A stretch of 64,000 nucleotides of DNA. Origin: Umbilicaria muhlenbergii. Taxonomy: Eukaryota > Ascomycota > Lecanoromycetes > Umbilicariales > Umbilicariaceae. The stretch lies in contig KK106981.1 in the NCBI GenBank assembly GCA_000611775.1, forward strand, positions 6,656,312-6,720,311. The letters run 5' to 3'. How positions within the stretch are numbered: the first letter of the stretch is position 1; every line of letters begins with the position of its first letter. Below are positions 3,990 through 51,921 of the stretch, one piece after another. The position numbers were made by a program, and so were the translations under genes. The notes under the pieces were generated by a model. It was not told the origin of the DNA and made no database searches. It worked only from the letters and a program-made list of their open reading frames with translations.

Positions 3990-4408
3990 AATTTCTAGAC
4001 CTGTAGCGGCCATGCTGACGTTGCGTGACAGTTCACTAATAGGGCTACAGGACTGCGTATATACTCCATGTAAGAAAAAATTCATAACTCAGTCAATTTT
4101 GCACCGATTCAAGTGAACCAAAGATGGAGTGTGATGATTATATTGCTATGAAGTTGTTCCGCGCCTCAGAATTAAATTGTGACGCTGGGGTGGTGGCGCC
4201 AGTGACCACCTACTGCCTCAGCGGCTTATTGTCGGGCGTAATCGCCTTAGCGGCGTATTCGCGTAATAACGCACCAAAATTCACCCCCAGATAAGTCCTC
4301 CTTATCTCCGATGTAAACAAAGCAAGCGCAAATAAGTATTGCGTTACACAACGTATACGACAAATTGCATCGTCTAGTACCTTCCCTATCCTACGGTTTT
4401 GACTTGCA
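3990..4408. other. Start of uneroded island; gene upstream region
   Basis: At about 3998 the composition changes abruptly from AT-rich, CG-poor DNA to DNA full of CG. The first 52 bases (4000-4051) are closed by an 8-base inverted pair, cctgtagc and gctacagg, and may be the edge of an unrecognised element. The rest leads up to the nuclease-like gene starting at 4409. No convincing TATA box or reading frame was identified. Confidence 0.5.
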
Positions 4409-5930
4409 ATGATCGATATCGAAGTCTGGATCGATCAAACTTGCAGTGTCCAGCAAGAAGCGTACGTCCCTACCTGGATTTGGCGGTTCTCTTTGCAGAC
4501 GCGAACGACTGACTCTATCGCTTGCTCGGTGACAGAATCAATTTACCTCCTATTTCTAGCCTCCATCAGATCTCTGGCAACTCCAGGTCTCCGCGCCCTC
4601 AGTGGCATAAACGTTGCTTCTCAGTCGCCATGGAAGAGGGGAACACATTGGTCGACCCAGAGAAGACGCCCCGGCCTTCAAAGAAGCGCAACATAGGAAT
4701 GGTAGAGGGGGAGTTCGTTGTATCGTCTGTTGCGCTACCTGAAGTTTTCGATGCACAGAGTCAAAGCTCAGCCGCCAATTCTGAGCTGGAGTCGCATAAG
4801 AGTGGTCGAATGAGTCCTTCGAAACAGATGGCTCAACTGGAAGACCTTGAGCATCCTATCAAAGTTCTCGACTTTGGAAGCGCGGAGGCGAGCATACTGG
4901 AAAATGTGGAGAAGATGCGAGCAGAAGCACAGCTCCTTGCGGATGGTGTTGGGATACTGGGATACAATGTGAGGATGACGCTCTGACTTGCAGGATTCGA
5001 CGAAGCTAATGTTCGCCAATGATAGGATGGCGAGTTGGCAACCCTACGAAGTTCTCGAAGTCGCTTAGATCCAAGAGATCGTACGCGATTCAATTACACC
5101 TGGGCTAACGACTTCTCCAAACGCCGTGAAACGGGTATCATGCCGGATCTGACACCTGTTCTGAATCTCGTCAGTGCAGCAATCCAATGCGAGAGCGACC
5201 GAGAGCACGAGAACAGTTGGAACGAGGATATACATAAAGCTTTGATAAACATGGCAGTAGGAACCTCGCGTTACGCGCAACGTCTGGCTGTGAAATCGTT
5301 GTACGTCCCCACAATGATATGCATGTTATATTGGACCTTGGACCAGGACGCTGACATAGCCCTTTGTCCAGAAAAACCGCCTCTATAGATCCTCCTACCC
5401 TCGCCGAAGTCTCATTACCAAAGCGAGTTGTCGATTACGGTATTGTGTTGGTACCAGACGATCGGATCAAAAAGGCATTTCTACAATTACAACCTCTCGC
5501 GCCCGCGACAGTTAAGAGCTGGAATCACACCACGGCAAATAACGTCAGGCAAACTCCGATCGCAGTCAATATCGAGACAAAAGCATCAGACAAGTCTTGG
5601 ACAGACGGTAAGCCCCAGCTCGCCATCTGGACAAGTGCCCTGTTCAAGCGGCTCCAGAAGCTCGTAGGGGATGAAGCAGCAGCAAATTTGCGCATTCCGG
5701 CAATGCCGCTTGTGATTGCGCAAGGCCATGATTGGCATCTTCTCATTATTTCGCATCAGCCTTCACCTGAAGAGGGGAGGACTGTTATTTGGCAGAAGAT
5801 TGACATTGGCAATACGCGTAATTGCTTTGACATTTATAAGATTATTGCTGTTCTGCACCTGGTAGTGCAGTGGGCAGAGACGACTTGGCGACCTTGGTTT
5901 TACTCCCTTCTGGATCTTGCAAAGATGTGA
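4409..5930 (+). CDS. PD-(D/E)XK nuclease-like domain protein, four exons
   Basis: Proposed exons are 4409-4461, 4536-4968, 5026-5300 and 5372-5930, giving 439 residues. The introns are 74, 57 and 71 bases with donors gtacgt, gtgagg and gtacgt and branch-like ctgac or ctaat before AG; all phases agree. The protein fits the fungal PD-(D/E)XK nuclease-like family (the PDDEXK_12 type, recalled, not searched). A short N-terminal MIDIEVWID segment leads to a basic, Pro-rich linker. A helical region carries WNEDIH (W227, E229). The core has D275 in VVDYGIV, E322-T-K324 as the (D/E)XK motif, Q336 in QLAIW, QGHDWHL at 371-377 and a C-terminal WRPWF. The catalytic set looks complete. The family's role is unproven; members are often scattered near transposons. 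ATG 4630 would be a fallback start in good context (gccatgg). Confidence 0.8.
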
Positions 5931-6634
5931 TGCGGCTACGGGTTGTGTCATGGGCCTTGCGGGGAAGAGCTCTTCTTAGCCTACATGCTAGAAATACGTG
6001 TCTGAACAGAATCAAATTGCTGATTGCCCACAGTCTCTTCGCCCTGCACTGATAATTCAACATTCGAGGACATTTAGGACGAATTTAGGACCTACTTGAG
6101 CTGATCACTCGCTTAGTAACGTGGGCAAAGTAATGTGTAAAAAAGTGAGGCCAGTGGGTGTCACACGATAGAGGACTACTTGCCATGATTTGGCTAAACT
6201 TTGAGCGCATGGAAGTCCCTGCTTCTCCCCGCACTCAGCGTCACCGAATCCGAAAAACTAGCCATAGCCCGAAGATATTCGGCATCCCAAACTCCACAGG
6301 AGGAGCACATGGCCACAGGGTATAAATTTGACGAGGAGAACACACTGAAGGAGGGCTTACAGCTCTCCAACTAGCTATCAAGATTCATACATCATATTTT
6401 GCTAAATCTCATCGTGGATTGTTGCAAGAGAGCCATTGCTTCAAGGAACCTATGTTTTTTTTTTCTTTTTCTCTTCTTCGTCTCGTTCGTCTATTCTCGG
6501 TCCTTGCACGGGTTACCAAGCGTCAAGAGTGTCTAGTCTAGCTAAGAGAAGAGCATTTTGCATCTAATTAAGCAATGCTCACTCGCTGTCTCAATCAATA
6601 AGCCTAAATCGTCTCTCACCCACCCCTTTCAGGG
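5931..6634. other. Intergenic, no gene seen
   Basis: Uneroded DNA downstream of the nuclease-like gene. It holds a T-rich run near 6450-6470 and nothing else I can name. No RNA gene or long reading frame was recognised. Confidence 0.5.
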
Positions 6635-6832
6635 CTAATCATCAACAGGCAACACGTTCCTCAGATCATCGCGAAAAGTCATGAGTGCTTGAACTTCGAC
6701 TTGGCTTAGACGCGAATTCACTCCGGTTGCCGTCATCGTTTCATGATAGCGTCTCCTCTTGTGGTCGATAGTAAGCTGCGCAAAGACTCTTTGAGAAATA
6801 GTCGGCGCAATAAGGGTTAAAGACTTGGTCAT
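6635..6832 (-). CDS. Short hypothetical reading frame
   Basis: Starting from ATG at 6832 on the minus strand, 65 codons end at 6635. The product begins MTKSLTLIAPTI and ends RDDLRNVLPVDD; it is charged and looks helical in its second half. Composition is protein-like (SQVEVQALMTFRDDLRN) and the stretch lies in uneroded DNA, so it may be the last exon of a longer or decayed minus-strand gene. No upstream exon could be fixed because the adjoining DNA (6870-7147) is a G-rich repeat. The family was not recognised. Confidence 0.3.
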   Translation of the reverse strand: MTKSLTLIAPTISQRVFAQLTIDHKRRRYHETMTATGVNSRLSQVEVQALMTFRDDLRNVLPVDD

Positions 6833-6869
6833 TGTGAATACCGCGTTCTTGATACGCCTCAGCAAAGGG

Positions 6870-7147
6870 CAGGATTAATGCTTGCCATTTCCGCTCAGGC
6901 AAGGGAGTAGGGGCGCCTTAAAGGGAGCAGACAGGGAGCAGTGAGGGAGCACGAGTGGGCATTAGCCCGGCGGCAACGCCTTAGTCAGCCGTCAGTCACA
7001 TGTTGGTGTCAGCTTAGAGGTTACTATATAACCCCCGAACCTAGGATTGGGAATTGCCGTTTCGGCTCGGGAAAGGGAGCAGGGCCGCTTTAGAGGGAGC
7101 ACCGAGGGAGCAGGGGAGCAGAGAGGGAGCATGAGGGAGTAGAGAGG
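6870..7147. repeat. GGGAGCA-rich degenerate repeat tract
   Basis: The word gggagca and close variants occur many times here and again at 7403-7455 after the solo LTR. Two longer blocks, about 6885-6955 and 7051-7120, resemble each other: each starts near ttgcc(a/g)tttc, followed by a run of gggagca words. A minus-strand frame open across this area is probably not a gene. Confidence 0.6.
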
Positions 7148-7402
7148 TGTTGTAATGGAACGATATAGAGACCAAATAAATGTATTGTATCTGCCTAAAT
7201 ATCGCCCAAATGATATAAATGAACGTGAGGAAGAAAGCAGAAACTCGAGGCTTTCGAGCCGTTAATATACATGTTAAGGAGCTTTTCGCTAAGCCAAAAC
7301 ATACGTACACCCATGACGTGACTGCTTCTCTTGCTAGGAACCCCTGCCCTAAACCCCTGCCCCAATGACGTCTGCTCGGCGGCGAATCGGCGAAATTCAA
7401 CA
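7148..7402 (-). mobile_element. Solo LTR with 5-base target duplication
   Basis: A 255-base segment reads on the minus strand from TGTTGAATTTC to CATTACAACA and is flanked by agagg on both sides (7143-7147 and 7403-7407). TG...CA ends and an exact 5-base duplication are the signature of an LTR left alone after recombination between the two ends of a retrotransposon. Its first ten bases, TGTTGAATTT, match the start of the LTR at 9944. Not eroded, so either young or below the length that erosion recognises. Confidence 0.75.
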
Positions 7403-7935
7403 AGAGGGAGCACGGGGAACACTGAGGGAGTAGGGGGCACAGCAAACGGGAGCTTGAAATGGCTCCATCAATATCGGCTTGAGCTACACTCACTATTGCT
7501 CGATTAAGCTCCGCCTGCTGCCTAGATATCGTCACTTCCTATCGGAAAATGAGAATTACACGTTCGGTAGCAGATAAACTCCTCCACCGCTGCCGAAACA
7601 CCAGTGCGAATTACGGAGTGCGAATCGTCGTGAACAGTTCCTCGTACAACCCTATGAAATCGCGCACACGGTCGTCCCTTCATACAGTACAAGAAAAGGC
7701 CAATCGCCAATAATATCTCACCCCCTCAGAAGAGACCTTGCCTAAATCAGCCTAGAATCATGCTAGGAATCAAGCCGGATTCCCCAACAAGCAACCGGCT
7801 GGAGCGCAAAGCAGATGCAGGTTGCGTCGTACTAAGCCACTGAGCCAGCGCGAGTGCCAGCTGAACAACCATCAGGCTGGCGACAACAGCCCCAACATCT
7901 CTATCCACACTGAAAGTACCCAGACGCACACCGTA
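7403..7935. other. Intergenic, end of G-rich tract then plain sequence
   Basis: The first 50 bases continue the gggagca tract interrupted by the solo LTR. From 7456 on there is uneroded sequence without a recognised gene. Short frames on both strands show no family resemblance. Confidence 0.45.
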
Positions 7936-8091
7936 ATGAGCTCCGGGTTCATTATCGGCGACTTTTTGGCGGTAATCCAACTAGCCAACAAGATCAGGAA
8001 AGACTTCGTTGCTGCTCTAAGCCAGTTTAGCGACATCTCCGATATATATGTGACCACAACTAACAAGAGAGCGCATGCAGTGGTGTGCTGA
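7936..8091 (+). pseudogene. Orphan N-terminal exon of STAND/kinase-type fungal protein
   Basis: The frame from ATG 7936 begins MSSGFIIGDFLAVIQLAN, followed by KIRKDFVAALSQFSDISD. It closely resembles, from memory, the extreme N-terminus that many fungal NLR/STAND and kinase-like proteins share (MSFGFSVGDFIAV..., then a Lys-rich helix and QFKDISDE). In such genes the first exon often ends just after this motif. Here the expected next segment was not found in the 280 bases before the HNH gene, so this is most likely a detached first exon, a relic of a larger gene. It lies in uneroded DNA, so loss was by rearrangement and not by point erosion. An in-frame ATG-less extension runs back to about 7822. 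Confidence 0.5.
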
Positions 8092-8377
8092 CCTTCTCTA
8101 TTATTGGTCTTGGAACCGTGGCCAGTTCACCTCGCAGAAAGGTAGCTCGTATTGCGCTGCATTGTCTGTTTCAGCCGCATGTGGTGAAAATTTTCCTGGG
8201 GCCCTTTGCTGAATAAATATAAAGCTAGCACTCGAGCAAGCCTTGTCCCTAGCGAGTTCATTGAATTGCATGCCGGCTTCTTTGATGACAGACTGCCTAA
8301 TTCATTAGTATTCTAGAAAATCAAATATTACAGTTAGTATTCACCTACCACGATACTTCAATCCTCTAAGTGATTGA
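8092..8377. promoter_or_regulatory. Upstream region of the HNH gene
   Basis: A TATA-like aataaatataaag sits near 8211-8223, about 155 bases before the start codon at 8378. It could be the core promoter. No other motif stands out. Confidence 0.3.
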
Positions 8378-9859
8378 ATGAGCAGAGATATCAAAATGTC
8401 TGATTCTATTCGATCAAAACTGGATAATGCTCTTGCTGCGCTTTCAGAAACCACCACCCGGTGCATTTGGGACCCTGTAGATTTCGACTCGGACTGGTAC
8501 CGCTCTGAGGTTGAAATCTGCCGGGCACTTTGTTATGACCTACCTGAGAATGTGGAATTTGAGGTGCGCGCAACACAAGATACGTATGGGAGTGGTCCTT
8601 TAGCAGACGTATTGAGAAAGGTGGCTAAACAGCAGCCACAAAATCGATCAGCATCGTTAGAAGAGAAGGTTCAATGCCAGGGAGCTGTACGAAAGATCAC
8701 GGAACGTTTTGATGAACAGTGGGAAAAGTTGACGGAGAGGCTGGGGCAGCAAACGCAGGACTTACTTGAGCTAGTACAGACTGCGCTGGACCAATGGTCT
8801 TGCACTATGTACCTCCTTTCAATACTAGTAGATGCGGAGCAAGTTGGGCCTGAATCATCGGCAAAATGCATGGACAGAATTAACCTCAACTTATGGCATC
8901 TACAGCTTCACCGCAACGGACTCTCTATGGAGCCGAATTTGAGGAAACAGACTGTCAGTCATCTCAAGTTTATGGCAAAGCAGTTCAAGATAAACACCAA
9001 GCAAGGAGGCCAAGACAATCTGCATGGCGCTGCATCAACGAGCACACAAAAGGCGGCCGGAACAGTTGGAGCCAGTCCAAATTCTCGCGTGCGCAAGACA
9101 AGACCAGGACAAGCTCATTTTGCTCAAATGCTTGCAGATGGTTACAAGTGCGAACTTTATGATGGGCGTCATAAAGAGCGCTGGTGCCCTGTTACCAGAG
9201 ACTGGATTCCGGCTGCTAAGATCATCGCAGCGCATATTGTCCCCTTTTCTCTTGGAGATGATCTTGCACAGGACCTTTTTGGTGTTGGAACCACATTAAT
9301 GGATATCCGTAACGGGCTCTATCTTCATGAAGACGTCGAAGCCGCTTTTGACAACGCACAGATGGTTATTCTTCATAATCACACAGTTGATCCGCTAGGA
9401 CAGATCCTTGAAGCATATGTGATTGATCAAACGCTACTTGACAAGTCCTATGGGGAAGGGAAATATAAGTGGGAGGATATTCACAAGAAGAAACTTCAAT
9501 TTCGACATGGCGTACCTGTGCGACCAGCAAGGCGATACCTCTACTTTCACATGCTATTTGCTGTGATCCGGCTGTCAATACACCAACCACCAAATTGGGT
9601 GAACAGTATTCCAGAGCTAACCACGTGGCCAATGTACCCAACCAATGCTGAGTACCTTCAGCGGGGAATTCTACTCAACATCGTCCGCGTCATTGGAGAT
9701 CCTGAGGTGGAAGAGAAGTTGGTGAATTACATCCCTCGAGAGTCGCCACTTCAAAGTTACAGCCCCTTTCCAGTGAATACTATTCAGAAGTCTCATGAAA
9801 CGAGCGCTGAAACTCTTGGATGGATGAATGACTATCAAGGACTACAAGATGAGCCTTAA
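8378..9859 (+). CDS. HNH nuclease-like domain protein
   Basis: An uninterrupted 493-residue frame without introns. The N-terminal half is acidic and helical and looks like a fungal-specific leader. The HNH_2-like domain spans roughly residues 246-345: C270 in CPVTRDW, H286 in AAHIVPF, N312 in RNGLYL, then H317 and D325 in the AFDNAQ stretch. This order (Cys, AAH, N-x-L-x-L-H, FD) is what the family uses to bind metal and cut nucleic acid; here it looks complete. The rest, to residue 493, follows the domain as in other fungal members (from memory). A second in-frame ATG lies at 8396. Substrate and role are unknown. It shares the island with a PD-(D/E)XK nuclease-like gene about 2.4 kb away, on the same strand. 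Confidence 0.8.
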   Translation: MSRDIKMSDSIRSKLDNALAALSETTTRCIWDPVDFDSDWYRSEVEICRALCYDLPENVEFEVRATQDTYGSGPLADVLRKVAKQQPQNRSASLEEKVQCQGAVRKITERFDEQWEKLTERLGQQTQDLLELVQTALDQWSCTMYLLSILVDAEQVGPESSAKCMDRINLNLWHLQLHRNGLSMEPNLRKQTVSHLKFMAKQFKINTKQGGQDNLHGAASTSTQKAAGTVGASPNSRVRKTRPGQAHFAQMLADGYKCELYDGRHKERWCPVTRDWIPAAKIIAAHIVPFSLGDDLAQDLFGVGTTLMDIRNGLYLHEDVEAAFDNAQMVILHNHTVDPLGQILEAYVIDQTLLDKSYGEGKYKWEDIHKKKLQFRHGVPVRPARRYLYFHMLFAVIRLSIHQPPNWVNSIPELTTWPMYPTNAEYLQRGILLNIVRVIGDPEVEEKLVNYIPRESPLQSYSPFPVNTIQKSHETSAETLGWMNDYQGLQDEP

Positions 9860-9943
9860 TGTAACTTTTCTCCTGTTTTTCCCCTGTCTGTCTGCTTCTT
9901 TTAGATTAATTAACTTGTCGTCCATCGTCAGCGCTGTGCTTAA

Positions 9944-10120
9944 TGTTGAATTTAGGCGCTGTCGGCTTACAGCAGTCGCTTATCGGGGTTGATATCGGTG
10001 TTGGATGGTAGGCAGGGTTTAGGGTTTTCAGGGTCCAGGCAGTCACGGCGGGGCCTTATAGTTAGCTGGTTCCCACATTGTTCTTTGCTAGTTAGTCAGT
10101 CCTTATCGATATTTACAACA
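9944..10120 (+). repeat. Left LTR, uneroded
   Basis: Begins TGTTGAATTTAGGCGCTG and ends TATTTACAACA. CG dinucleotides are frequent. Its last 117 bases belong to the 188-base tandem duplication that follows. Confidence 0.85.
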
Positions 10121-10379
10121 GGTTATGAGCCCGGTCAGCGCAAGGCGCTGCGGATTGACTCCGTCCATGCTGAGAGGACGTTAAAGACTATGATGGTAGG
10201 CAGGGTTTAGGGTTTTCAGGGTCCAGGCAGTCACGGCGGGGCCTTATAGTTAGCTGGTTCCCACATTGTTCTTGGCTAGTTAGTCAGTTCTTATCGATAT
10301 TTACAACAGGTTATGAGCCCGGTCAGCGCAAGGCGCTGCGGATTGACTCCGTCCATGCTGAGAGGACGTTAAAGACTAT
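10004..10379 (+). repeat. 188-base tandem duplication of LTR end and leader
   Basis: Bases 10004-10191 are repeated at 10192-10379, starting gatggtaggcagggtttagg, with about two differences. The unit holds the last two thirds of the left LTR plus the first 71 bases of the leader. The right LTR carries no such duplication, so it arose in this copy or its parent by unequal exchange or template switching. Confidence 0.85.
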
Positions 10380-10800
10380 GCAAACAAGCCCTCTACAGAG
10401 GCAGTCACGGAAGTCCTCCGCGCAGAGGCAGTATCAAAAGCTCACAAAGGTGGCCATTCCACTTCGGAAGCCCTCCACGCAGAGGCATGTCATGGCCATT
10501 TTCAATCCAGTTTTGATAGAATCGTACGGGCCTTGGGTTGTCATATACACTCAACAATATCAACTTTCGGAGACCGTTTCCTTCGATACATTGGCGGCTC
10601 AGTTATGGGACGAAAATCGACGCCTTATGGAGTGAGAATCACCGCTGGAGGGAGTGTCTATGAGTGGAGGGGCATACATGTCAAGAGCAATGACTGAGCC
10701 TACATGCTGGCATTGCAAGAAGTCAGGGCATAAGGAGGAGTGTTGCTGAGTGTTACATCCTGAGTTGAGGCCTGCAACAGCGAAGATGTGTGTTGAGACT
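10378..10800 (+). pseudogene. Copia-like gag fragment with zinc knuckle
   Basis: An open stretch with the wording SFDTLAAQLWDENRRL, typical of Copia gag, is followed by a CCHC zinc knuckle at about 10710-10746 (C-x2-C-x4-H-x4-C, CWHCKKSGHKEEC) and then HPELRP, which fungal Copia gag proteins often carry just after the knuckle. The reading is broken. No protease, integrase or reverse transcriptase follows. Confidence 0.65.
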
Positions 10801-10899
10801 ATTGTGATGTAGAGGTTTGAGAGAGGGGGGTCAAGATTTTAAGACAAACTTTTGAGGCTTTGTGAGTCACATTGTGGATGCGCATTTTGAGGATTTGGG

Positions 10900-11070
10900 A
10901 GTCATGTTTTGAACACGCAGTTTAGGGTTTTGTAAGATGCATCATGAATGCACATTTTTGATCTTTTGTGAGTCATGTTTTGAACACGCAGTTTAGGGTT
11001 TTGTAAGATGCATTGTGAATGCACATTTTTGATCTTTTGTGAGTCATGTTTTGAACATGCAGTTTAGGGA
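10900..11070 (+). repeat. 71-base tandem repeat, about 2.4 units
   Basis: Units begin at 10900, 10971 and 11042 with agtcatgttttgaacacgca. The first two keep CG in that word and the third has lost it, so the units lie across the edge of erosion. Confidence 0.75.
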
Positions 11071-11186
11071 ATTATCTGTGAGCTTTTTGAGTCAAGATAT
11101 GAGCTTTTTGAGAGGTTAGAAATTGAAGGATTTTCAGGAAGTTTTGAGAAGTTGAGGGAGCAGAGGGAGCCTTCAGTGAGAGGAAG

Positions 11187-11363
11187 TGTTGAATTTAAGT
11201 GCTGTCAACTTACAGCAGTCACTTATCAGAGTTGATATCAGTGTTGAATGATAAGCAGGGTTTAAGGTTTTCAGGGTTCAGGCAGTCATGATGAAGTCTT
11301 ATAATTAACTGATTTTCACATTGTTCTTTGCTAGTTAGTCAGTCCTTATTGATATTTATAACA
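11187..11363 (+). repeat. Right LTR, eroded
   Basis: The same 177-base length and ends as the left LTR, but without a single CG dinucleotide. It ends TATTTATAACA followed by the target duplication cttaa. Confidence 0.85.
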
Positions 11364-11850
11364 CTTAATAGTCTGCTAGATGATCTTGTGAAGTGCATGA
11401 TGATCATATTGTCTGCTTTGAACATAACTTTATTAGTAGCTGCTCATTCTTCTGCTTTCAGAATCTCCATGTAGGGTGAGGTGCATTGATGTGAGATATA
11501 AAACCTGTAAGAGGAATCTTGATCATAAAGTCAGAGCAGCAGCACAAAGTATGTACAGCACTTATGTAATGACTACACACTACAAGTGCTTTGCCTGTGA
11601 GACATTTCAACTTGCTTCCTTAATGATTAGTTTTATTATCAAATGTAGTGAATGTTTGCATGTACTGAATTTCACATTATCTTATAACTCTTTGAGCTGT
11701 TATGTCATTAACAACTCTGACATCATTTTGTCAACGCTTGAAGTCATCATGAAGGAATCACAAGTCAGTTTTATTCTAATAACTGATGTAAGCTTTAGTA
11801 TTGAAAAACTACTCTATAGCCCTCTTCTTCTTCACTATTGAGGTTGAAGT
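11364..11850 (-). pseudogene. LINE (Tad1-like) reverse transcriptase relic
   Basis: On the minus strand, bases 11480-11364 read MEILKAEE, then AATNKVMFKADN, then MHFTRSSSRLL. This matches the pattern seen in Tad1-type fungal LINEs just after the catalytic core of reverse transcriptase (A-E-x-W-A, F-x-x-x-K-T, I-H-F-T-R). A TGA stands where family members have Trp. The Copia-like element at 9944-11363 sits at the left end, and the frame stays open across the target site into 9943-9895 (STALTMDDKLINLKEAD), so the small element probably jumped into this LINE. Beyond 11480 to the right the resemblance fades and the limit is uncertain. Confidence 0.35.
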
Positions 11851-12412
11851 GTAGGCAGAGATAAAAAAGACAAAAGCATCTAAGCAACAGAGATTTATAA
11901 GATAAAAAGAGAAGAAAAGAGTGATAAATAAATTTAATATGAGATGAGAACATTGATAATGATGTGTTTAATATTATTTCAACATCAACAATCTCATCAG
12001 TGTATGCTGAGATGTCAGACTGAGAGAAGGTATTTAAAATATTTTATCTTTAAATAACTCTGAAGCACAGCAGCATACTCTGTTCAGCAAGTAAAAGGTT
12101 TAACCTGTGTTGATATTTGAGAAATCAAAGTATGATGATCTGAACTGCTTCATAAAATCAGCATTTGAATTGAATTTAAATAACACAGAAAGATTGAAGT
12201 TATGTGTAAATATTATCAGTGAAATTAAAAGTCTGCATGACAATGATAAGTGAAGCAATACTATCTGATACAGACATTGAACTAAACTTATAAATAAACA
12301 TTATACATAGAGATATCAAGTTCTGTAATGTGCTTATCTTTAAGAAAAGATCAGAATTATATGCTGTAAAACTTTTTAATTTTAATCATTCTATTTCTTT
12401 CTGTCAGGACTA
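11851..12412. other. Eroded AT-rich spacer
   Basis: Very AT-rich and nearly devoid of CG, CC and GG. No family resemblance was recognised on either strand. Confidence 0.5.
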
Positions 12413-12675
12413 TGCAGATTATGAATTAATGCATGTGTTTTAACAGGCTGACATTTAACTACAGAAGAGAATTCTAGTCTAAGAAGTAAAAGAAAGAAAG
12501 AGCATGAAGATTAAAGTCTTTATGCATGCATTAAGCTCATTAATTTAAATCACTGTTAACCTCTTCAGTCGTTCAGCGCTAACCTGTTCAGTCATTCAGT
12601 TTGATGCATTGTTCAGATCATTCAGATCATTCAGTTCTGTTCAGTTCAGTTTAATGTTCAGGTGTAAACCTGACA
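12413..12675 (-). repeat. LTR of the 12.4-18.5 kb chromovirus (3' side)
   Basis: It aligns with 18227-18477 along nearly the whole length, apart from a few small length differences. It contains many ttcag words. Confidence 0.75.
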
Positions 12676-15600
12676 CTACCTCCTCCTTTATTTAATGAGC
12701 TTCATGAGCTGATCATCTACCTTTCTGCCTTGTCATTGATGTATTCAGTGACTCAGCCGGCTTATCTGAGTACCTCTCATGAAATGCCTCTTTCAGTTCA
12801 GGTGAGTGTTTAAATTCATCAGCATTATATCAGGTCTTGTCAGATGAGTACTTTTTTCATGTCACTCTGTACTGTAGTCTGTTTTTTCATCAATGATTAT
12901 CATTAATCTGTTCAACTTCTCATTCCGGTTCAGCCTGTTCAGTTATTACTGATGGCGGTGATGACTTAATTTGTCCAGGCAAAGGATCATTCACAGTGAG
13001 TTATAATAAAAAGATGTGAAATACAGGATGTATTTTCATTGACTCAGGCAGTTCAAGCTTATATGCTTGAGCTGAAACTTTTTTCTTGATTTGAAAAGGT
13101 CCTTCATTCTTGTGATTCAGCTTTTTGAACAAGTGAATCATTCAAATGTTTTTCATTAACAATCATATTAGGTCTCTCACTTTATATGCTGAGATTAGTA
13201 TTCAGGTTCAGTTTGTGAAGTCTTTCTGTTGAAGTTGTGCTGCTGTCATGTTCTCTTGTAATATTGCATGTAAAGCTTTCATATGATTCATTATGAAATC
13301 AGCTTTTTCCTTCAGAATTTATTCTCTCATCAGCAGAGGTGAAATGATCAATCATTCAGGATTGAAGCTCATTCAAAGGTGATATCCTTTATTCACAAAG
13401 AATGATGAAACTTTGATGAAGTCAGAATCTGCATTGTTGACTGTAAACTCAGTCATTAATAATCATTTAATTCAGTCATCTTGCTGATAGTTCACAAATG
13501 CTTTAAGATACTGTTCAACATTCATATTCACATTTTCAGACTGCTTGTCTGTCTCAGGATGAAAAGTGATTGATGATTTCAATCTGATTTGAAGTCATTC
13601 ACATAAGTACTTTCAGAGTAATGTTACAAATTGTGATCCCTGATCTGAAGTTATGATTTGTGATAACTCATGAAATCTTCATACATTGTGAAGCAATAGT
13701 TTTGTGATATATTTCATTAACATTCCCCTCTTCTTATCTGTTGAATAAAAGATATAATATCTTTTCTTGATCAGTCTGCAAATGATTGTCAGGATTACGT
13801 TGAACCCTTTGCTTTCAAGTAAATTGATAATCAAGTTGAGTGAGATATCTTGTCATGAATGACTTGAGATTAAAAGTGATTTCAGGGCTTCTTAATACTG
13901 TTCATTCATGTTCTTTGTTCAGCGGCAGATGTGGCAATTTCAAACAAAATGACTGACTGTTCAGTTCATTCAGGGTCAATAGTAGGATCATGTAAGTATT
14001 TTCAATGTCTTTTGATGTCTTATATGTCCTGCAGCCAGCTGTTCATGAGCTTTCTGAATCAATCATCATCATAATTCATTCTGATTCAGATCATTATTAA
14101 TGCCTGAGACTCATACATGTTCTTAATAAAGCAGTCAGCCTTTGTTCTCAGTGCAGTCACTGAGAGAGATCTTGATTGAATGTCTTGCCTCAGTTCATAA
14201 TAAGCTTAGAATTTCCTGACAGAAGTTGTCTGCTTTCACATAACAGATAATCAACTCATTTAAAGTCTCATTCAGGACCTGTTCAGTTGATTCATTCAGT
14301 TCATTCAGGGTCTGTTTGTTTGAAACATCATTCAGGTCATCATTCAGATCATCATGTGAATTATTCAAGGCCTGTTCAGCTGATTTTAAAAGCTGAGGAG
14401 CTTTTTCCTTTTGTTCAGCAATGATATATGAGTTTAGGCAGCAGCTTGATAACATGATTTGAAATTAATATCATAATCACTCATCATCCTGATTCTTCTT
14501 TAGTCAGTCACTTGAGTGTTTAATGAGTGTATTCAACTTTTCATTTTCCTTACCTGTTCAGTATGTAATCATGTTGAATAATAAAAAATTCACAAATACT
14601 ACAATGCTGCTCACTGAAAGGCGGTCACCTTTTTAGTGCAGTGGTATTTCTGACAAATCACAAAGTTGAATTATGAGAGGAATTCAGCTCATCTGACTTA
14701 TCTGTGAGTCAGTTTCTTGATCATCATAAAGTACTTTAAGACTTTATGATCTGTCAGGATTTGAATCAGGTCCTTTGTTTCAGTCAGTTCAGCACATCAT
14801 TCTTTTAAGCTTCAAATAATAGTCAACAATTCTTTGTTATAAATTTCATAATTGCATTCAGCTGGTATGAGTTTCTTAAAGAAAAATGTCATTGAATGCA
14901 TTAATTTTTAATCATCTTTCTGAGATAGTACTCCTGTGAATATCAGGTCAGATGAATCACATTTAAGATAACATGTTCAGATTCAATCAAAGTGTTGTAA
15001 TATTAATATGTTAATCAATCAGTTCTTTAGTTCACTAAAGGCTTGAAGACACTGTTCAGTTTACATATTAAAGAGTATGTTCTTGCCTGTCAGTCTGATT
15101 AAAGGCTTTATGATTTTGAAATATCCCTCTATGAATCACTGATAAAAGTTGCAAAAACTTAAAAATGCTTATAACTGTTTCAGATTAATCAGTATCTCTC
15201 AGGTTTTAATGACTGTGATCTTTTCAAGATTCACTCAGATGTCATGACATTTTATGATTAATTTTAAGTATTGAGTTTCAGTCTTGTGAAATTCACACTT
15301 CTTGATTTCAGCTTGCAAATTTGCCTTTCTCAGTCATTCTAGAACAGTTCAAACATGAGTTCAGTGTTTAAACAGAAATTCAGAATAGATCAGGATATTA
15401 TTCAGATACATTATACAGCATGTGTTTAATAAATCAAATAATACATCATTAATAAAGTGCTGAAAGGTGACTGATTTGTTTATGAGTCTGAAAGGCAAGA
15501 CCTTGTATTTGTAGAAGTCATGTCTTATTTAAAAAGTAATCAGGTCTTCAGATTCAAGATTCATTCATATGCAGTGAAATGCCTGTTGTATATCAATTTT

Positions 15601-18226
15601 AATGAAGTATTTTGTCTTTAAAATCTGAGTCAGGGTTTCCTCAATTAAAGATAATGAGTATCAGTCTTTCTTCATAATTGAATTCAGCTTTCAGTAGTTG
15701 ATGCACAGTCATAAAGACTCATCTTTCTTTCATATAAACAGAATCAGTGAGGCTACTGATGATTGACTGACTTCAATGAAACTCTTTTGCAAGTTGTCTT
15801 TTATGTAGTTCTTCACTGCTATCAGTTCCTCATGTGACATATTGTAGAAGGGTGTGTATTTAAGCTTTTACTCACCTTTTAAGATGATCTTGTGATCATA
15901 AGATTGATGCAAAGAGAGTTCATTTGCAGCCTTTTTAAAAAAGACATCAATCAAGTCATGATATTCAGGAAGGAGAATCACCTTGATATTTAATTCACTT
16001 AACTTTAATTCAGAGTTCAATGCTTCCTCAATCTGTTGAATAAAGATTACAAAGATTTCATTGCCTTCCTTCATATTCAGTGCAAACAGTGCCGCGTCAA
16101 TCATCTTGATACTGACTGCATGTGAGGGGTTATTACCTTTTGATGTGAAGACTGATTCAGGAGCTTTTGTGATGAATTTCTTCAAAATTTGATAAGTTTT
16201 CAGTGATTCAGGTTCAATCATTCAGTTCATTCATTCATTCAGTGTTCAGTCCTTCAGTTCAGTTTATTTGTTCAATTTCATTCAGGTGTTCAGTTTCTCA
16301 TTCAGTTTCATTCATTCAGTGTTCAGTTCTTCATTCAGTTTTGTTTATTCAGTGTTTGATTCTTCATTCAGTGAGAAAATCACTACCCGGTTCACAGGGT
16401 TAATTAAAATTTGAGTGTGATTCATTCAAGAGAGTTTTAATATAATGCTGAGATCTTTCATGTCTACAATCATCATAAGGGTGAGTCACTGAGAATGATC
16501 ACAGATCTTCATTGTTGAATAAATCATGTATATAACTCATCTCACTGTCTTCTTCTGAAAATCATGTAGGGTTCAGGGCTTTGGCAAGAATACTGTTTTA
16601 ATTTCAGATCATTCAATCAGAGTCTTTGCCAGGTTAGCATTAATGAATGCATATTCAGTTGACTCAGTATCAAGTAGAGCCTTGACTCATAATTTAACCT
16701 CATTCAGTGTGAGCTTGCAATTCACTTTGAACAGTGTTCAGGTGAACAGCATGTCTTCATTAATCATTAATGCTGATATCATCAGGGGATTATCATCATT
16801 CTTTATCATGACTTTAATAGAGAAACTCCTTTTCCTGAATCTGATTCAAAATCAGAGTCAGAGTTGAATATGATTTATTGTACATATTTTAATGCTGAAG
16901 TCTCTTTCTTCTTGTTCTTGTTTAAACAGTTTAATGTAAGGTGTTTTTGTTCATTGCATTTAAAATAACATTCTTTCTTCATCTGTTGTTCTTTGGCGGC
17001 GTCTGAGTGTGATGTTCAGTTCAGTCATTCAGTTTGGTTCATTCAGGGAACTGACTCAGTGATCATTCAGATAGTTGATTTTAAGGTTTCAATGAAACAT
17101 TCAATCCTTGTATGAGTTTAACTTGTGAAGAGAGGTGTCTGATTTAATTAAAATTTGCTGATCTTCTTTGCATCAAGCAGTCATAAAGTCTAATTAATTC
17201 ATTGACAGCACTTGATGAGTTCATAAAGATCTTCAGGTCTGTCATCATCAGTGTTTAATTATCATTGAATGATGTTATTCACCTTGTTCAGAAGTTCTCC
17301 TATTCAGTATGAATCAAGAAACTCATTCAGTTCAGTAACATATCATTGAAAATCAGCTCAGAAGGATGAAAAGTTTTTGAATTTTTAATAAAGCTTACAG
17401 AATTCATCAGTGATGATATGTTTTCAATCTGAATCTTTATAAATTCAGGTCAAATGTCCTAGCAGTTCAGTAATGTTTGAATAAACTGTTCAGGATGTCA
17501 GATTCATTCAAGGTCTTATGTGTTTAACAGAGTCATCCTCAACTCTTGTTTTTACATACATTATCTTCATCTGTTCAGTGAAGTATCATTCATTCATTGC
17601 TAGTAGGTAATTTCTAATCTTCATTACTCATTCATCATATTTTGAATAATCATTGAAGAACATCAGTGAATCAGGAAGCTTTAATAATCTTAATGATCTT
17701 TTCACTGTGAGTTGAGGGAAATCAGATCAGGGGGTGATTATGATTCTTTATTCAAAATATGTTATCACATCAGCTTATTTAATGACTTTTTTCTTCAATT
17801 CCTTGTTTTTATCCTTCATTCTTTCATAGTTCACTTGAAATTCTTCATGTGCCTTTATAATGATGTCAATTTCATTCAAAGACTGCTCATGATCAGTGAT
17901 TAATTATCAGAAAGCAGTCATTGCTTCAGAGAAATGTTCTTATAAAAGATTAATCAAGATCTCTGCATTTCAGGTGATCAGAATCTGATCAATCAGGTTT
18001 TCATTCAAAGTGAATTGTTCATCATTCACAGAAGTCAACAAAGACTTTTTAATTCATGAGTAAACTACACTACTGATTTCTTTGATCATCATGATTAATT
18101 TCAGGTTTTAATTCTGAGTTCTGATTTTGATTCATTTTTTGATTCTAGTTCATTTTCTGATTCTGGTTCATTCAAGTTGCATTGCGGCAGGAGATAAAGG
18201 GAGAGATTAAAATAATATCAAAATTA

Positions 18227-18477
18227 TGCAAATTAAGAATTAATGCATGTGATTTAACAGGCTGACATTTAGCTACAGAGAAGAATTCTAATCTAAGAAG
18301 CAAAAGGAAGAAAGAGCATGAAGATTAAAACTTTTATGTGCACATTAAACTCACTCATTTAATCACTGCTAACCTGTTCAGTCTAATCACCGTTAACCCG
18401 TTCAGTCATTCAGTTTAGTATCATTCAGATCATTCAGATTATTCAGTTTAATTCAATGTTCAAGTGTAAACCTGACA
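18227..18477 (-). repeat. LTR of the 12.4-18.5 kb chromovirus (5' side)
   Basis: Partner of 12413-12675. The inner flank on the minus strand reads tttgatatta, compatible with a decayed primer-binding site of the TGGTATCA type. Confidence 0.7.
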
Positions 18478-19730
18478 CTCTTCAGAGAAAATTTGAGTGC
18501 TTTTTCTCTGAGCACTTTTTGTATCTTTGTAGAATTAAACTTGTGAAACTGTTTAATTAATGACTCTGTGTGCTGTAGATTTTCTGTTGACTTTCACATA
18601 ATCTTATCTTTCTTGTAATCTTTTCAATGAACTAAGTAGTGTAGTGTTCTCTCACAAATTTAACTGTTGAGTAAAGTGAAGACTTTTCATTTTTGTTCTT
18701 TCTTCAATAGTTCATTGACATTTATAGTAGCTGTGTTAAATTTAACAACAGATTTAAGAAGTTAAACATTAAAAACATTATGAATCTGTCTTTATTAAGA
18801 ATGTTAAGTTTATAAAATTATGTTCTGCTTCTTCATGTTATTGTATATAATCTGAGATGCTTATTATTAAGCTTTTTACTCAGTTTTTTTGTTGCTATAT
18901 TTTAAATGTTAAGTTAAACTTTATCACTGACATTGAACTTCTGACTCATGTGCTGTTTATTATAATATGTCAAGTATTTCTTGTTGACTTATAATAATTG
19001 TAGCTTTAAATTCTTCTGAATTGTGTTGAGTTTCTTCATTAATTCAGCAGTCTTTATAGCTTGACTTTTGTAAGAATTCAGATTGAGCTTCATTTTCAGA
19101 TGTTTTTTTATTGCTGCAAAAAATGATGTAACTTCTGTTGCACTATGAACATTATTATTGTATGTGAATTTAGTCATTGATAGAAATCTCATTTAATTAT
19201 TTTACTCATCATTATTAAACATCTGTAAATATATCTCAATTGTTTAATTTTGTCATTCAGTTTAACTGTCAGTTTAAGAATGAAATGCAGTGCTGAGATT
19301 CTATCAAGCTCAGAGATGAAAACAAAAAAAATTAAAATACTTAAATGCAAACACTGTTTCTCAATTTATGATTAAGTTGTCAGAGCATTTATGTAATTGA
19401 ATCACTGTTAAAATAAATAGTCTCATCATATCAGAGATATCAATCATTTTTTTTATTGATTCATAATGAGTTATTTTGATCAATCTGTTGAGTGTTATCA
19501 AAATGACATTTGTACACTACTTTATTATAAACTTTACTCAGAGACAGATCTGTAATAAAGTTCATTATTACACTTTCTTATGATCTCTGTGATGATGATA
19601 AAGAGTTCAGAGTTTTATATAATTTATGTCAGACTGACTTTTTCTTTTAACATAATACACAATTTCTGCAGTATTTCTTTATTGAGCTGCTTGATCTCAG
19701 TTAATTATAATGTTATTGAGTGAGCTCTGC
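18478..19730 (-). mobile_element. Gypsy fragment: integrase end
   Basis: The minus strand at 19192-18989 reads FLSMTKFTYNNNVHSATEV and onward, the pattern of the last third of a Gypsy integrase (F-x-Y-N-N-x-x-H-S-A-T), followed toward 18660 by a worn polypeptide end with FIMFLMF-like traces of the NVFHVSLL motif. The upstream domains are missing or too worn to see. Very strongly eroded and broken many times. No LTR pair could be assigned. Confidence 0.65.
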
Positions 19731-22700
19731 TGTGTTACAATCTCAGTCTTGCTGATACTTGATGTTGTGAGTTAGTGTTATAATCATTAGTGAAGCACTA
19801 AGTACTGAGTGTTATGAGTCAATGTTATGACTTTAGCAAAGCTTTAACTTAAGTGAGATTATATATATATTGACACTGACTCTTTTATTTTTTTCTTCTT
19901 TATGTCATGTCTTGTATCTACATTTAGTATTTAGAAATTTTATCTTTTTAATACAACACAGCTCACATCTTAACATTATATAATATTAATTTTACAAATT
20001 ATGTCTTCTGAGTCTTCTTTTAAGTTTTCTGCTGAGTTTCAGTTTCTCACATTTTCTGATGATGTTAATGATTTTAACACACAGATTTTTAAAGCTGCAA
20101 TTAACAAAGACTCTGAAGAGTGATTTAAGTACTTCATCAATTATCACATCACAGTCAAAAACTTTAAGTTTTATTATGAAGCACTCATCATTGAATCTCA
20201 GCAGCTTCAAATCATTATCACAGAGTTGAATAACATCAACTTCACTTATCTTCAACAATAAGTTCAACTGAAAATTTAACTTGAGATGTTATGTGCACAG
20301 CAGACACAGCAGTTTACAGATATTATTAAGTCTGAAAAACTTTCAAATTCTGCTGTCTTTGACAGCAGTTTTAATAAGCTGAAAAATTTCTTGCTAAAGC
20401 TCTGAGTTAAAATAATAATGAATGCAGACTGTTATTCATTATCACAAAATTAGCTTTGATATGCAATCACTTAAATCTTTAACAAGATTAAAGATTAGAT
20501 TCTGTCATACTGTATTAACATCAAAGTTAATCTCACAGATCTCTCTGTCTTTGAGAAAATTATAAAGAACACTTTTAAAGATTCTGATTATTAAAAAACA
20601 GCTCAGATTATTATATAATAATTACATTAATGAAATTAAGACTTCAGCACTTACTTTACTGAGTTTAACTGTCACATTGACTATACACAGTGAAATAAGA
20701 CAGTTAAGAAGTCAGCATTGCTGACAGAGATCTTAAATGAGCTTCATTAATATTTAATCACTGTAAAAACTTTTAAGATAAATTTGTCTGATCTGACACA
20801 TATTTTGCAAATCATCAATAACTGTCATTGAGTCATGCAAAATGTCACACACAGTAATACTTGCAACTGTGTGATATTATTTCAGCTGCATGTTTTTGCA
20901 ATGACTGTCTCACTGTCAACGTCTCAGTCAACACAATTAACACAGTCATAAAATATAACTTCTTCAGTGTCTTTCTTTCTCACTGCTTAATGAGTCAGTG
21001 TCATTATCACTGCTGATAAAGACTTTATGAATCTCTCTGTTGCTCAGTTTTATCTCTGTGAATCTTTATTTACTGCAGAAAAGATCTGTTGTATGTAGAA
21101 TAATCTCTGTTTATACTGTGAAAAAGTCAGTTATAAAGTTATTATCTGTACAGTTAAATCTTCTGTGCAGATGCAGCTTCAACAAACTCTCTTTAATAAT
21201 TAATCAGAGAGAGTGAAGAAGTTAAAAAACAAATAATCTCTGTGCTCAATTATATTCAGAGATTAAAATAATTTGATTATAAACTTTCTGTCTTGTCTTC
21301 ACAAATCTCAGTGAATGAAAAGAATGAGTTTATCAGTGAGTATTTTCTGATTAATTGTATTATCAGTTCAGATAATATTTAAGTGAATACAAAAGCTTTT
21401 GTTAACACTGAAGACTTTGATTATGCTTTTATTGATTAAGTTTATGCACAATTCTTGAATTTGATCTTGTTATCTTTGAATACATCTCATGTTTTATATG
21501 TTTTTGACAGTTGTGAATCTGCTGTTGACTGAGTCACTCATTATATCTTGTTGAATCTACTCACTGATAATCATGTTTCTCACAACACTTTTTGTTATGT
21601 CATTTAGCTGCAGATTAATTTTCTTGTTCTTAATCTTCTCTGACTTCAGAATCACAAAATAACAATTAACTACAAGAAGAATTGCTTTATATTTAATTTT
21701 ACTCACTGTTGTCAGTGATGTATATTCATTAAAACAGTGATTTTTTATATACTTAAAATCTCTTTTAAATGCTCTGAATCTTTCTAGAACATCTGCATGA
21801 TGAGTGTTGCTCTCATTACTCAGCTTGCTCAGTGCAAGAATTATCAGCTGTTTATTATCTCTTTCAACAATATTGAGAAGACTCTGACATTTAAAAAAAC
21901 AGTCAATGTACTGATTAAACTATTTTAAGAATATCATGAATTTGCATTTCTGTTTTTTTAAGAAGAATTCAACAAACTGTTTTCACACTGTGTTTATGAT
22001 CACATTATATCTCTGATTTCTGAAAAAGAACTTCTCAAGAGGCTTTTATACAACATGTTTCAAGATAAGCTTTTAATCTTGCAGAAATATCTCAAGAAAT
22101 ATCTGTTTAAGGATTTTATCTGTGTCAGTTTCTCTTCTGCAGCTTTTTCTGTGATCTTTATTAAGAAATTGAAGAGTGATTTTTATCTGTGTATGAATTA
22201 CTGTGATCTCAACAATCTGATAATTAAAAACTGCTACTCACTGTCTTTAATCTGTGAGACACTGAATCTTATGACTTCATCAGTGATTTTTATCAAGCTT
22301 GATATCATTGCTGTCTTCAATAAACTACAGATGATGAAAAGAGAAGAGTGAAAGACTGTTATATAAACTCATTATAATCTGTTTAAATATCTAATTATAC
22401 TTTTTAAACTATGTAAAGCTCTAAGTTTCTTTCAACACTACATTAATGATATTTTGCAAAACTGTTTAAATGTCTTTATCACTGCTTACATTGATAATGT
22501 CTTGATATTTAGTAAGATTAAGAAGAAGCACAGAAAGTATATTTAAATTATTCTCATTAAACTTTGAGAAGCTGATCTATAACTAAATATTAAAAAATGC
22601 AAATTTAATGTGAAAGAAGTTAAATATCTGAGTTTAATCATTACTTAAAAGAAAATTCAGATGAATTCTGTTAAAATCACTGTTATTGTTAACTGAGCAT

Positions 22701-23436
22701 TCTTTATCTGTGTTAAGAATGTTCAGAGCTTTTTAAAGTTTATTAACTTTTATCAACAGTTCATTAAAGAATTCTCTCAGCTTGTAAGCTTCTTGACTGC
22801 TTTAACTTATAAGAACATTTCATTCAATTGATCTTTAACTGCTGAACAAGTCTTTTAAGAGCTTAAGTGAGCATTTTTTTCTGCTTTTATTCTGATTATG
22901 TTTGATTTGAATAAATTATTCACAGTAAAGTTTGATAGTTCTGACTGTGTTATCAGCAGAGTGTTATCTTAATCTGATTCATAAAAAGTGTTACACTCTG
23001 TTGCTTACTTCTTCATCTGTATAACATCAGCAGAATATAATTATGATATTTATAATAAAAAGTTACTGATCATTATCTGTGTCTTCAAAGAATGAAGACT
23101 GAAGTTGAAAGATACTGCAGAGAAAGTTCAGATTATCACTGATCACAAAAATCTTGAATATTTCAGAATCATCAAGCAATTAAGCTGTTGTTAAACTCAC
23201 TGAAGTGAGTTTCTTTCACAGTTCAACTTTGTCATTCAGTACTGTTCAGATAAGTTAAATAACTGTGCAGATGCTCTCATCTGTAAAAGTAATAATTTCT
23301 TTTAAGATGACAAAGATCTCTGACATACTCATCATCAACAGTTAATAATTAAGTCTCATAATCTGTCTGCTGACTTGAGAAAACATCTGTCTCTGTATTC
23401 AGCTGCTTTGAAATCAGTCTCAGAAAAGAAGCATGC
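19731..23436 (+). mobile_element. Old Ty3/Gypsy element, left part (split by insertion)
   Basis: A probable 5' LTR and leader (about 19731-19960, TGTGTTACAA...), a gag start near 20002, a worn gag (to about 21200), protease (about 21450-21900), reverse transcriptase (22055-22700, with clear LxKLDIxAxFNKL and MNYCDLN-like wording) and RNase H (about 22900-23290). The element is cut at 23436 by a younger chromovirus and resumes at 32028 with the zinc-binding start of integrase. It is among the most eroded elements in the window, with CG, CC and GG nearly absent, and is broken many times. Confidence 0.75.
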
Positions 23437-23715
23437 TGTAAGAGGCTGAGTGTATGACAGTCATCATAATGATGTTTGAACAGAGTGTCATAGGCAAAAG
23501 TCATGATAAGGTTAATGCAGTGATTATACATCTTCTATTCAGTGACAAAACTGATCACTGAGGAAGCAGGTTTTTAAACCTCCTTGTGAAGAGTTTTCAC
23601 TTGATGTCAAGGCGCTAAGTGCTGAGTCATCATGTCTATATAATGTCATACTATAGTGTCATACTATAGTGTTGTACTTGTCATATTGTCATACTATTAT
23701 ATGATGACTTTGACA
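23437..23715 (-). repeat. LTR of the 23.4-32.0 kb chromovirus (3' side)
   Basis: 279 bases, equal in length to its partner at 31749-32027 and very similar. It carries a short internal repeat, tgtcatactatag. Confidence 0.85.
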
Positions 23716-24339
23716 CAGCATTTCTCTTCTCATGGCGCTGTCCTCAGTGTCAATTGACTCTGAACTCATCATTATAAACATTATCATGATAGTCTGATAA
23801 GTGATTGATCATGTAAGGTGAGTGTGTGAAACTGTGTCAGACTCTTGCTGTAGATCACTTATAAAGCCTTGATAAAATCTGTAAAACCCCTTGAGGAAAA
23901 TCAGGAAAAAGTGTCTTTATGACATTAATTAAATCCTGTTTGAGCTGTTCAGATTGTTCATGTGAGACTGCATTAAAATAAGACTGATCATGTGCCCTCA
24001 CTTAATTGTGATGATATCACGCTGACAGTAAGCTTTCTTCATAACACAAACATCAAATTCATCATGTTTACAGTAAGTTCAAAATGCTCTTCCCTTTGTA
24101 TTTATTCTTCATCATTTATCTTATGACATGTTGTCATACCTCTCATGACTTTTTTCACAGCTCATTGAGTGACTTGATGACTTCATGACATCATCTTCAT
24201 TGCAAAGGTGATCACCTCATGAAGGGAGCATCATGAAGCTCATAACTCATGTCTCATTTGTGATGTCATACTCTCTGTCATACTCATATGCATGCTAACA
24301 TAGTGTATATAGCTCATCAACATTTGAATGATTGAACTC

Positions 24340-25330: not shown

Positions 25331-25608
25331 GTAAATAAATGAGGATGACTTGATGCAGCACTGATGAAAGGTTAAGTGCAAGATGTTGACTTCAGATTCA
25401 TTTTGATCTTCAGACCTGAAATAAAATGCTTCTGCACTTAAGTGTTCTCTGCAATGTGACATGTCTGTTATAATGTAGTTCATGCAGTAATTCTATTACA
25501 GATCCTGTCATAACATTGTAACATCATAACCTCTGTCATATTCTTGTTGTAGGGCACAGGCTTCATCATAGAAGAACAAGTTAACAAAGCTGATAAAGTT
25601 TTCAATTC

Positions 25609-25735
25609 TTAAGACTCATGTCTTTTGTGACAGCTTTTTTAAGGCTCATGACTTTTGTGACAGCTTTCTTAAAGCTCATGACTTTTGTGACAGCTTTCTT
25701 AAGACTCATGACTTTTGTGACAGCTTCTTAATCAA
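25609..25735. repeat. Tandem repeat, four units of about 32 bases
   Basis: Four variants of aagactcatgacttttgtga followed by cagcttt(t/c)tt lie between the chromodomain remnant and the antisense frame of the chromovirus. Confidence 0.8.
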
Positions 25736-51900: not shown

Positions 51901-51921
51901 TTTAACATGTATAACCCACCT

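Follow-up and report, generated by a model that had tools for sequence, protein, structure and literature searches.

An LTR pair at the edge of an AT-rich repeat block in Umbilicaria muhlenbergii and the C-B-A context of its C-to-T changes

A small LTR element across the edge of a repeat block

The window, i.e., the whole stretch of 64,000 nucleotides of Umbilicaria muhlenbergii DNA that was analysed, contains an island with open frames and an AT-rich repeat block of 52 kb, and a short LTR element lies across the edge of the block. The features are listed with their positions in the window, their strand where they have one, and the observations on which they rest. C-B-A denotes a cytosine that is followed by C, G or T (B) and then by A.

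4001..10600, no strand: unmutated island that carries one HNH_2 frame as well as PDDEXK_12 frames (composition, frames)
9939..9943, no strand: left target-site duplication CTTAA (flank comparison)
9944..10120, plus strand: left (5') LTR, unmutated, TG...CA, 177 bp (ungapped pair comparison; 15 little-mutated genomic copies)
10004..10379, plus strand: 188-bp stretch, most of the left LTR plus the neighbouring leader, present twice in tandem (copies 10004-10191 and 10192-10379, 99% identical)
10121..10141, plus strand: likely primer-binding site, a 21-mer (conserved right after the LTR)
10378..10635, plus strand: 85-aa frame (by eye like the start of a 144-aa frame in the sibling element L037)
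10700..10904, no strand: edge of the mutated zone within the element (C-B-A sites compared with L037 and a further copy, L030; composition)
10904..63300, no strand: AT-rich repeat block with C-to-T mutations (GC 0.32 over 11401-63300; CpG at 0.07 of expectation)
11187..11363, plus strand: right (3') LTR with 26 C>T or G>A changes (ungapped pair comparison)
11364..11368, no strand: right target-site duplication CTTAA (flank comparison)

CTTAA is present at both ends of the LTR pair, as is expected of a single insertion. The short TG...CA LTRs and the 5-bp target duplication are like those of small non-autonomous LTR retrotransposons, presumably of the TRIM or TR-GAG-like class; the internal region comprises 1,066 bp, and its largest entirely internal frame has 85 aa. 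The 144-aa frame of L037 contains, by eye, a zinc-knuckle-like CX2CX4HX4C motif, and a Pfam search with this frame yielded no match. The likely primer-binding site presumably resembles one half of the initiator-Met tRNA. With up to 3 mismatches allowed, its reverse complement was found at 58 places in the genome, including two within the window, and searches for a corresponding tRNA gene were negative. Three full-length relatives of the element (L025, L037 and L046) each have an identical LTR pair and a matching target duplication, showing that not every duplicate has been mutated. As to the 188-bp tandem duplication, short tandem repeats may escape mutation.

The island has mutated blocks on either side and carries the HNH_2 frame (493 aa) and two overlapping PDDEXK_12 nuclease-like frames, at 8378-9859 and 5035-5930, respectively. 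One protein in a public assembly is 97% identical to the HNH_2 frame, and the next best one, from Kalmusia, 52%. A 255-bp repeat of the island (7148-7402) is also present in loci of this element family (L035 97%, L016 88%, L017 87%, L031 83%). The composition has further edges near 4.0 kb and near 63.5 kb. Within mutated AT-rich DNA a 231-bp tandem duplication (2530-2760 and 2760-2990) is 100% identical, and it was either copied after mutation or is identical through saturation. A repeat family of the block (35742-36597, 41677-42797, 52057-53183, and the genomic loci L055 and L056) comprises several heavily mutated copies, including inverted pieces, mostly with 95-97% identity (L055 about 87%); here, saturation may drive the convergence of mutated copies.

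The two 177-base LTRs were compared base by base without gaps. They differ at 26 positions, and from left to right all differences are C>T or G>A, with no length change and no transversion. The first-pass annotation had given about 26 sites, all C-to-T or G-to-A, with 8 at CpG, 12 at CpC, 5 at CTA and 1 at CpA, and the recount reproduced these numbers exactly. Both strands were affected without bias (9/33 C and 17/53 G changed, P = 0.81).

The direction of change was determined with other copies of the LTR. The left LTR has 42 matches in the genome (34.8 Mb, 7 contigs), three of them within the window. Fifteen other copies that comprise all 177 bases with at least 93% identity have the base of the left LTR at 24-26 of the 26 positions that vary, in agreement with the earlier claim that it is always the right LTR that carries the changed base. 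A copy beside an AT-rich edge (L035) agrees with the left LTR at 21 of the variable sites and differs from it by 6 forward transitions (4 at CGA) and 6 reverse ones, and thus is only suggestive with respect to direction. The annotation had named copies that side with the right LTR as evidence against the proposed direction, and two such copies exist, namely L053 (20/26 sites) and L054 (9 of 13 covered sites). However, both are located in AT-rich DNA (flank GC 0.26-0.38), and a comparison of L053 with the left LTR gave 13 transversions and 9 gap positions, while the right LTR has none, and therefore they were read as having changed independently at the same sites. L053 and the right LTR have 20 changed sites in common, compared with 9.1 expected, and separate changes by one site-selective process explain the agreement better than descent. 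Solo LTRs, which are short and have matching flanks of 5 bp, were little mutated, as may be expected of repeat-induced point mutation (RIP), a process that acts before meiosis and needs duplicates beyond a minimum length.

The annotation had placed the LTR pair across the edge of erosion. It was verified that the pair straddles a boundary, but the boundary itself sits within the element. L037 could be used as a reference only up to about 10,775, since its homology ends there in non-homologous tandem repeats; an L037 alignment of the whole internal region was dropped for this reason, and L030 and L025 were used beyond that position. In the region 10393-10749 a difference from L037 was found at only 6 of 35 C-B-A sites, and the 17 forward transitions, 11 reverse transitions and 9 transversions look like background divergence. 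Compared with L030, none of the two C-B-A sites at 10877-10891 is changed, in contrast to 29 of 39 from 10904 on. Because 10776-10855 is without a reference sequence and the composition already drops across 10701-10900, the edge was placed at about 10.7-10.9 kb. The right LTR represents an intermediate stage of mutation, and the deep block is near saturation. At the scale of the window and the loci, mutation was confined to repeats and their margin, i.e., to the block with its internal repeats and to mutated transposon copies, as opposed to the unmutated gene island and 20 kb of flanking sequence, with L025, L037 and L046 as exceptions. Taken together, the other copies, the duplicated CTTAA and the switch within the element support the view of the annotation that the pair records in which direction and context a C-to-T process has acted, and how far it has reached.

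Trinucleotide context of the changes

In the left LTR, cytosines were changed at 8 of 16 CpG, 12 of 26 CpC and 5 of 8 CTA sites, compared with none of 14 other CpT and 1 of 22 CpA sites; the target contexts were thus changed at 25/50 sites versus 1/36 elsewhere (Fisher P = 8e-7). The dinucleotide list of the annotation collapses largely into one trinucleotide rule, which goes beyond it: the mutated cytosines are mainly C-B-A, with an A at +2 and a base other than A at +1. In the LTR pair 15 of 19 C-B-A sites are changed (hypergeometric P = 7e-7).

The rule was followed with a strict tally that includes only sites with unchanged +1 and +2 bases, by which the LTR pair loses 8 of its 26 changes. 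In this tally C-B-A was changed at 15/18 sites of the LTR pair, compared with 1/19 for CAN (CAA 1/6, CA[CGT] 0/13), 0/14 for CT[CGT] and 2/8 for C[CG]B. The rest of the element (10856-11186), compared with L030, gave C-B-A 16/21, CAN 0/40, CT[CGT] 0/25 and C[CG]B 6/26. Over 10856-11363 CCA was changed at 14 of 15 sites relative to L030, and CTA in 10856-11186 at none of 4 sites, so that among the three C-B-A contexts CTA is the weakest. L053 also follows the rule (C-B-A 7/8 versus CAN 2/12, P = 0.005). In two small samples, each likewise compared with the left LTR, it was not apparent when they were taken alone, namely L054 (C-B-A 4/5, CAN 1/5, CTG 2/3, P = 0.21) and L035 (C-B-A 3/15 versus CAN 0/17, P = 0.09).

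Reverse transcriptase segments of copia elements were taken from the whole genome. Among 55 RVT_2 matches 20 nearly full-length segments were selected, and 17 of them were tallied against two less mutated references, while L081 and a separate locus, L059, were excluded after alignment because both are rich in transversions. Sites were counted as changed when at least one copy was changed. In the subfamily F1 (4 copies) these were 41/46 C-B-A sites and 10/73 CAN sites (CAA 10/29, CA[CGT] 0/44), and in the subfamily F2 (13 copies) 36/41 C-B-A sites and 20/100 CAN sites (CAA 14/38, CA[CGT] 6/62). In addition to the spectrum, its direction and the edge, it is thus shown that the context rule holds beyond a single element, in two copia subfamilies. 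The argument rests on these site counts and on the separate families, since the cells of F1 and F2 are not independent (copies share history). The reference of F2 carries mutations of its own (139 reverse versus 624 forward transitions). A first, non-strict context table of F1 and F2 was replaced by the strict one; it overstated CAA because a CAA in the reference can derive from a CpG that other copies turned to TGA (66 F2 cells).

Per-cell rates in F2 were.98 for CGA,.67 for CCA,.24 for CTA,.49 for CGT,.52 for CGG,.16 for CCT and.07 for CAA, and 0/224 CAG cells were changed. CAA cells were changed at a low rate in both subfamilies (17/115 in F1, 31/437 in F2) and CA[CGT] cells hardly at all (0/159 and 9/740), while across F1 and F2 the rate was 0.49-0.58 for CGT and 0.12-0.52 for CGG. 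The low-rate changes at CAA and those at CGT and CGG indicated that C-B-A is a preference and not an absolute rule. Logistic fits placed most of the context information at +1 and +2 and much less at -1, with drops in log-likelihood of 65, 68 and 17, respectively, in F1 and of 243, 200 and 26 in F2. A CpG ended as TpA in only 3/144 (F1) and 0/221 (F2) cells, and otherwise as TpG or CpA, as expected if the product of a CpG is a poor target.

Composition, stop codons and methyltransferase genes

Across 11401-63300 the GC content is 0.32, and relative to expectation CpG is at 0.07, CpC at 0.40 and CpA at 1.47. Over 11501-62900 the fraction C/(C+T) is.002 before GA,.01 before CA and.11 before TA. 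A forward simulation, a single run that started from genic DNA, used the F2 rates and was stopped near the GC content of the block, came close to this composition, in contrast to CpA-type and CpG-only models. It gave a GC content of.33 (observed.32), CC.37 (.40), CA 1.57 (1.47), TpA/ApT.57 (.68) and a substrate index of 1.68 (1.58). The simulation slightly overshoots the block, with CpG at.01 versus.07 observed.

The standard RIP indices of the block are.68 (product), 1.58 (substrate) and -.89 (composite). Windows were regarded as RIP-positive when the product index was >1.1, the substrate index <0.75 and the composite index >0, close to published thresholds (product >1.15, substrate <=0.75, composite >0; PMC7882544). 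None of 104 overlapping 1-kb windows was positive, and the composite index taken alone exceeded 0 in 2 of 104. Because CpA is largely spared, the standard indices score the block as negative.

The stop codons of decayed transposons carry the same preference. Among 248 transposon matches, 241 of which bear stops, TGA accounted for 1040 of 1315 stops. The numbers of TGA, TAA and TAG were 231, 97 and 4 in RVT_2 (55 matches), 682, 106 and 15 in RVT_1 (150 matches scored among 877 candidates), and 127, 49 and 4 in DDE_1 (43 matches), and through these stops the process is also seen in RVT_1 and DDE_1 elements. In an open copia frame, single C-B-A changes create TGA only (32), while single CpA changes create only TAG (39) and TAA (31). 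Counter to the rule, TAA exceeds TGA in 13/55 RVT_2 matches, 8/43 DDE_1 matches and, by eye, 3/150 RVT_1 matches. The scarcity of TAG is not independent evidence and may be partly secondary, because TAG is CTA on the opposite strand and can itself be converted to TAA. A reverse transcriptase remnant within the block (29008-29484, minus strand, C1:6685319-6685795) has seven in-frame TGA and neither TAA nor TAG.

The cytosine-methyltransferase family has four matches in the genome (L009-L012: L009, L010, L011 and L012). L009 is a frame of 1042 aa with a methyltransferase domain, a DUF7893 match and a BAH match just below the cut-off, and its motifs read as DIM-2-like. L010, which we take from its motifs to be of the RID class, aligns to residues 209-982 of a Lasallia pustulata protein (P0007) with 68% identity and one interruption of 51 bp that reads as an intron; the comparison covers this stretch of the locus, and residues 1-208 of P0007 fall outside it. 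The Lasallia pustulata protein is the best named relative of L010, one other protein has 69% identity, and Umbilicaria vellea is lower; this ranking places the window in a lichen-forming fungus that belongs, or is close, to the family of Lasallia. Both genes are open over the stretches examined. An NCBIfam search of the methyltransferases added a general cytosine-methyltransferase match only. For the target-recognition end of RID-like proteins 10 proteins were tried, of which two were useful relatives, three end before the region and five are without the anchor motif. L011 represents a third type of cytosine methyltransferase, and L012 (C1:6527376, about 129 kb from the window) is a stop-bearing relative of L011; neither of the two is AT-rich.

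Candidate mechanisms and relation to known systems

The results are very probably to be read as RIP with a different cytosine specificity. A short non-autonomous LTR element would have inserted at the border of the repeat block, and thereafter a repeat-directed C-to-T process of the RIP type would have mutated the block and the right half of the element and halted within the element, at about 10.7-10.9 kb. The process prefers C-B-A, with CGA and CCA as the strongest targets and CTA as a weaker one, changes CGT and CGG less often, and largely spares CpA. A first change would convert CpG to TpG or CpA, and CCA to TCA, and these products would be poor targets, so that a CpG would rarely be mutated twice and the block would level off near a GC content of 0.32. 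The chemistry would be methylation and/or deamination of the target cytosine, and the process would presumably act in the sexual cycle. In line with RIP, only C:G to T:A changes were found, on both strands (26/26 in the LTRs), and a gene of the RID/Masc1 class, so named from its motifs, is present. The usual, though not universal, CpA preference and positive RIP indices were absent.

Slow deamination of 5-methylcytosine in heterochromatin during vegetative growth, without meiotic RIP, is an unlikely alternative that has to be weighed seriously. It would involve the DIM-2-like methyltransferase, or the third, L011-like type, with a C-B-A preference. The DIM-2-like gene is indeed present, and DIM-2 of Zymoseptoria was described to raise mitotic C-to-T mutation, there at CpA (PMC8016269). 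However, the switch from unchanged DNA to a zone with 29/39 changed C-B-A sites lies within one element, and a RID-like gene is present in addition.

It is improbable that the two LTRs are not the original pair, i.e., that the right one stems from an older mutated element or that the sequence of an intact copy has replaced the left half through gene conversion. Many near-identical, little-mutated LTRs could have served as donors, and the tandem duplication of 188 bp is found on the left side, but CTTAA is present at both ends and the LTRs have neither length changes nor transversions between them. A conversion of the left part alone may be compatible with the latter evidence.

Ordinary CpG-only methylation and deamination, as in many genomes and in the RIP-like cases of basidiomycetes, would account for the near absence of CpG from the block and for 8 of the 26 LTR changes, but is very hard to uphold, as 17 of the 26 are at CpC or CTA, CCA is changed nearly throughout the right part of the element (see above), and a CpG-only simulation left CC at 1.13 (observed 0.40) and had lowered the GC content only to.363 when it was stopped. 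Still less can be said for classic RIP of the CpA type, the commonest published RIP target (PMC4352252), in which CpA seems spared because it is already exhausted: 21 of the 22 CpA cytosines of the left LTR are unchanged in the right one, and CA in the block reaches 1.47 times the expected level, while the CpA model gives 0.17. Editing of cDNA by an APOBEC-like deaminase during reverse transcription, which would also cluster C-to-T changes, can be dismissed for practical purposes, because the strands are equally changed, the upstream base is a far weaker predictor than +1 and +2, and the depleted composition extends far past the element.

The preferred reading, RIP with a different specificity, can be compared with known systems. 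Like the RID-dependent, CpA-preferring RIP of Neurospora crassa and other Pezizomycotina, the process makes only C-to-T changes, acts on both strands and on repeats, has an edge, and is accompanied by RID-like and DIM-2-like genes. In contrast to it, CpA is largely spared, the context is mainly +1 (not A) and +2 (A), the stops are mostly TGA, and the indices are negative. RIP in Cladonia rangiformis, another lichen fungus, is likewise described with low-GC repeats beside normal genic DNA, a sharp boundary between genes and transposons, and RID and DIM-2 homologues (PMC12542154); there, TE-derived sequence peaks at about 16% GC, versus about 32% in the block, and the main text of that article mentions neither CpA nor CpG. 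CpG is also mutated in the CpG/TpCpG hypermutation described for basidiomycetes (Rhizoctonia AG8, Microbotryum), but in those fungi the third base with an effect is the one at -1 (TpCpG), while here it is the one at +2, and CCA and CTA are mutated, too. CpT, CpG and TpCpG are among the deviations of RIP context described in PMC4352252 and PMC4014442. CHH methylation of the CMT2 type, by plant chromomethyltransferases, shares a methyltransferase context that extends beyond +1 and a favoured A at +2 (CAA and CTA in Arabidopsis), but it is methylation and not mutation, and according to PMC5221884 CAA is favoured, and in tomato CCA has one of the lowest levels, opposite to the situation here.

A published scheme (PMC4352252) assigns CpA and CpT to RID, and CpG to an enzyme of the Masc2-like type, which is not easily reconciled with the present case. 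The authors of RIPCAL state that the tool was not designed for detecting trinucleotide bias (PMC2621366). No report of C-B-A or +2-dependent RIP was found in a literature search of limited coverage, with subscription papers mostly outside it. Clutterbuck reportedly surveyed the RIP contexts of ascomycetes in 2011.

The LTR pair is a calibrated example, with one insertion, identical sequence and one half spared, and the CpA-based indices call the block unaffected though its C-B-A sites are nearly gone. It seems fairly probable that the repeat-mutating enzyme of this lineage requires a base other than A at +1 and favours A at +2, a specificity that would be undescribed for RIP, self-limiting at ~32% GC, productive mainly of TGA stops, and invisible to CpA-based indices. 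If this is true, RIP may be under-counted wherever such a C-B-A variant exists. The choice of the cytosines that RIP mutates may be made by RID, by DIM-2 or by later repair. On balance, RID is the component that we would expect to set the cytosine context here, and DIM-2 is a doubtful candidate for this role. With a natural variant that relies on +2, leaves CpA mostly unchanged and occurs together with genes of the RID-like and DIM-2-like types, these options become testable.
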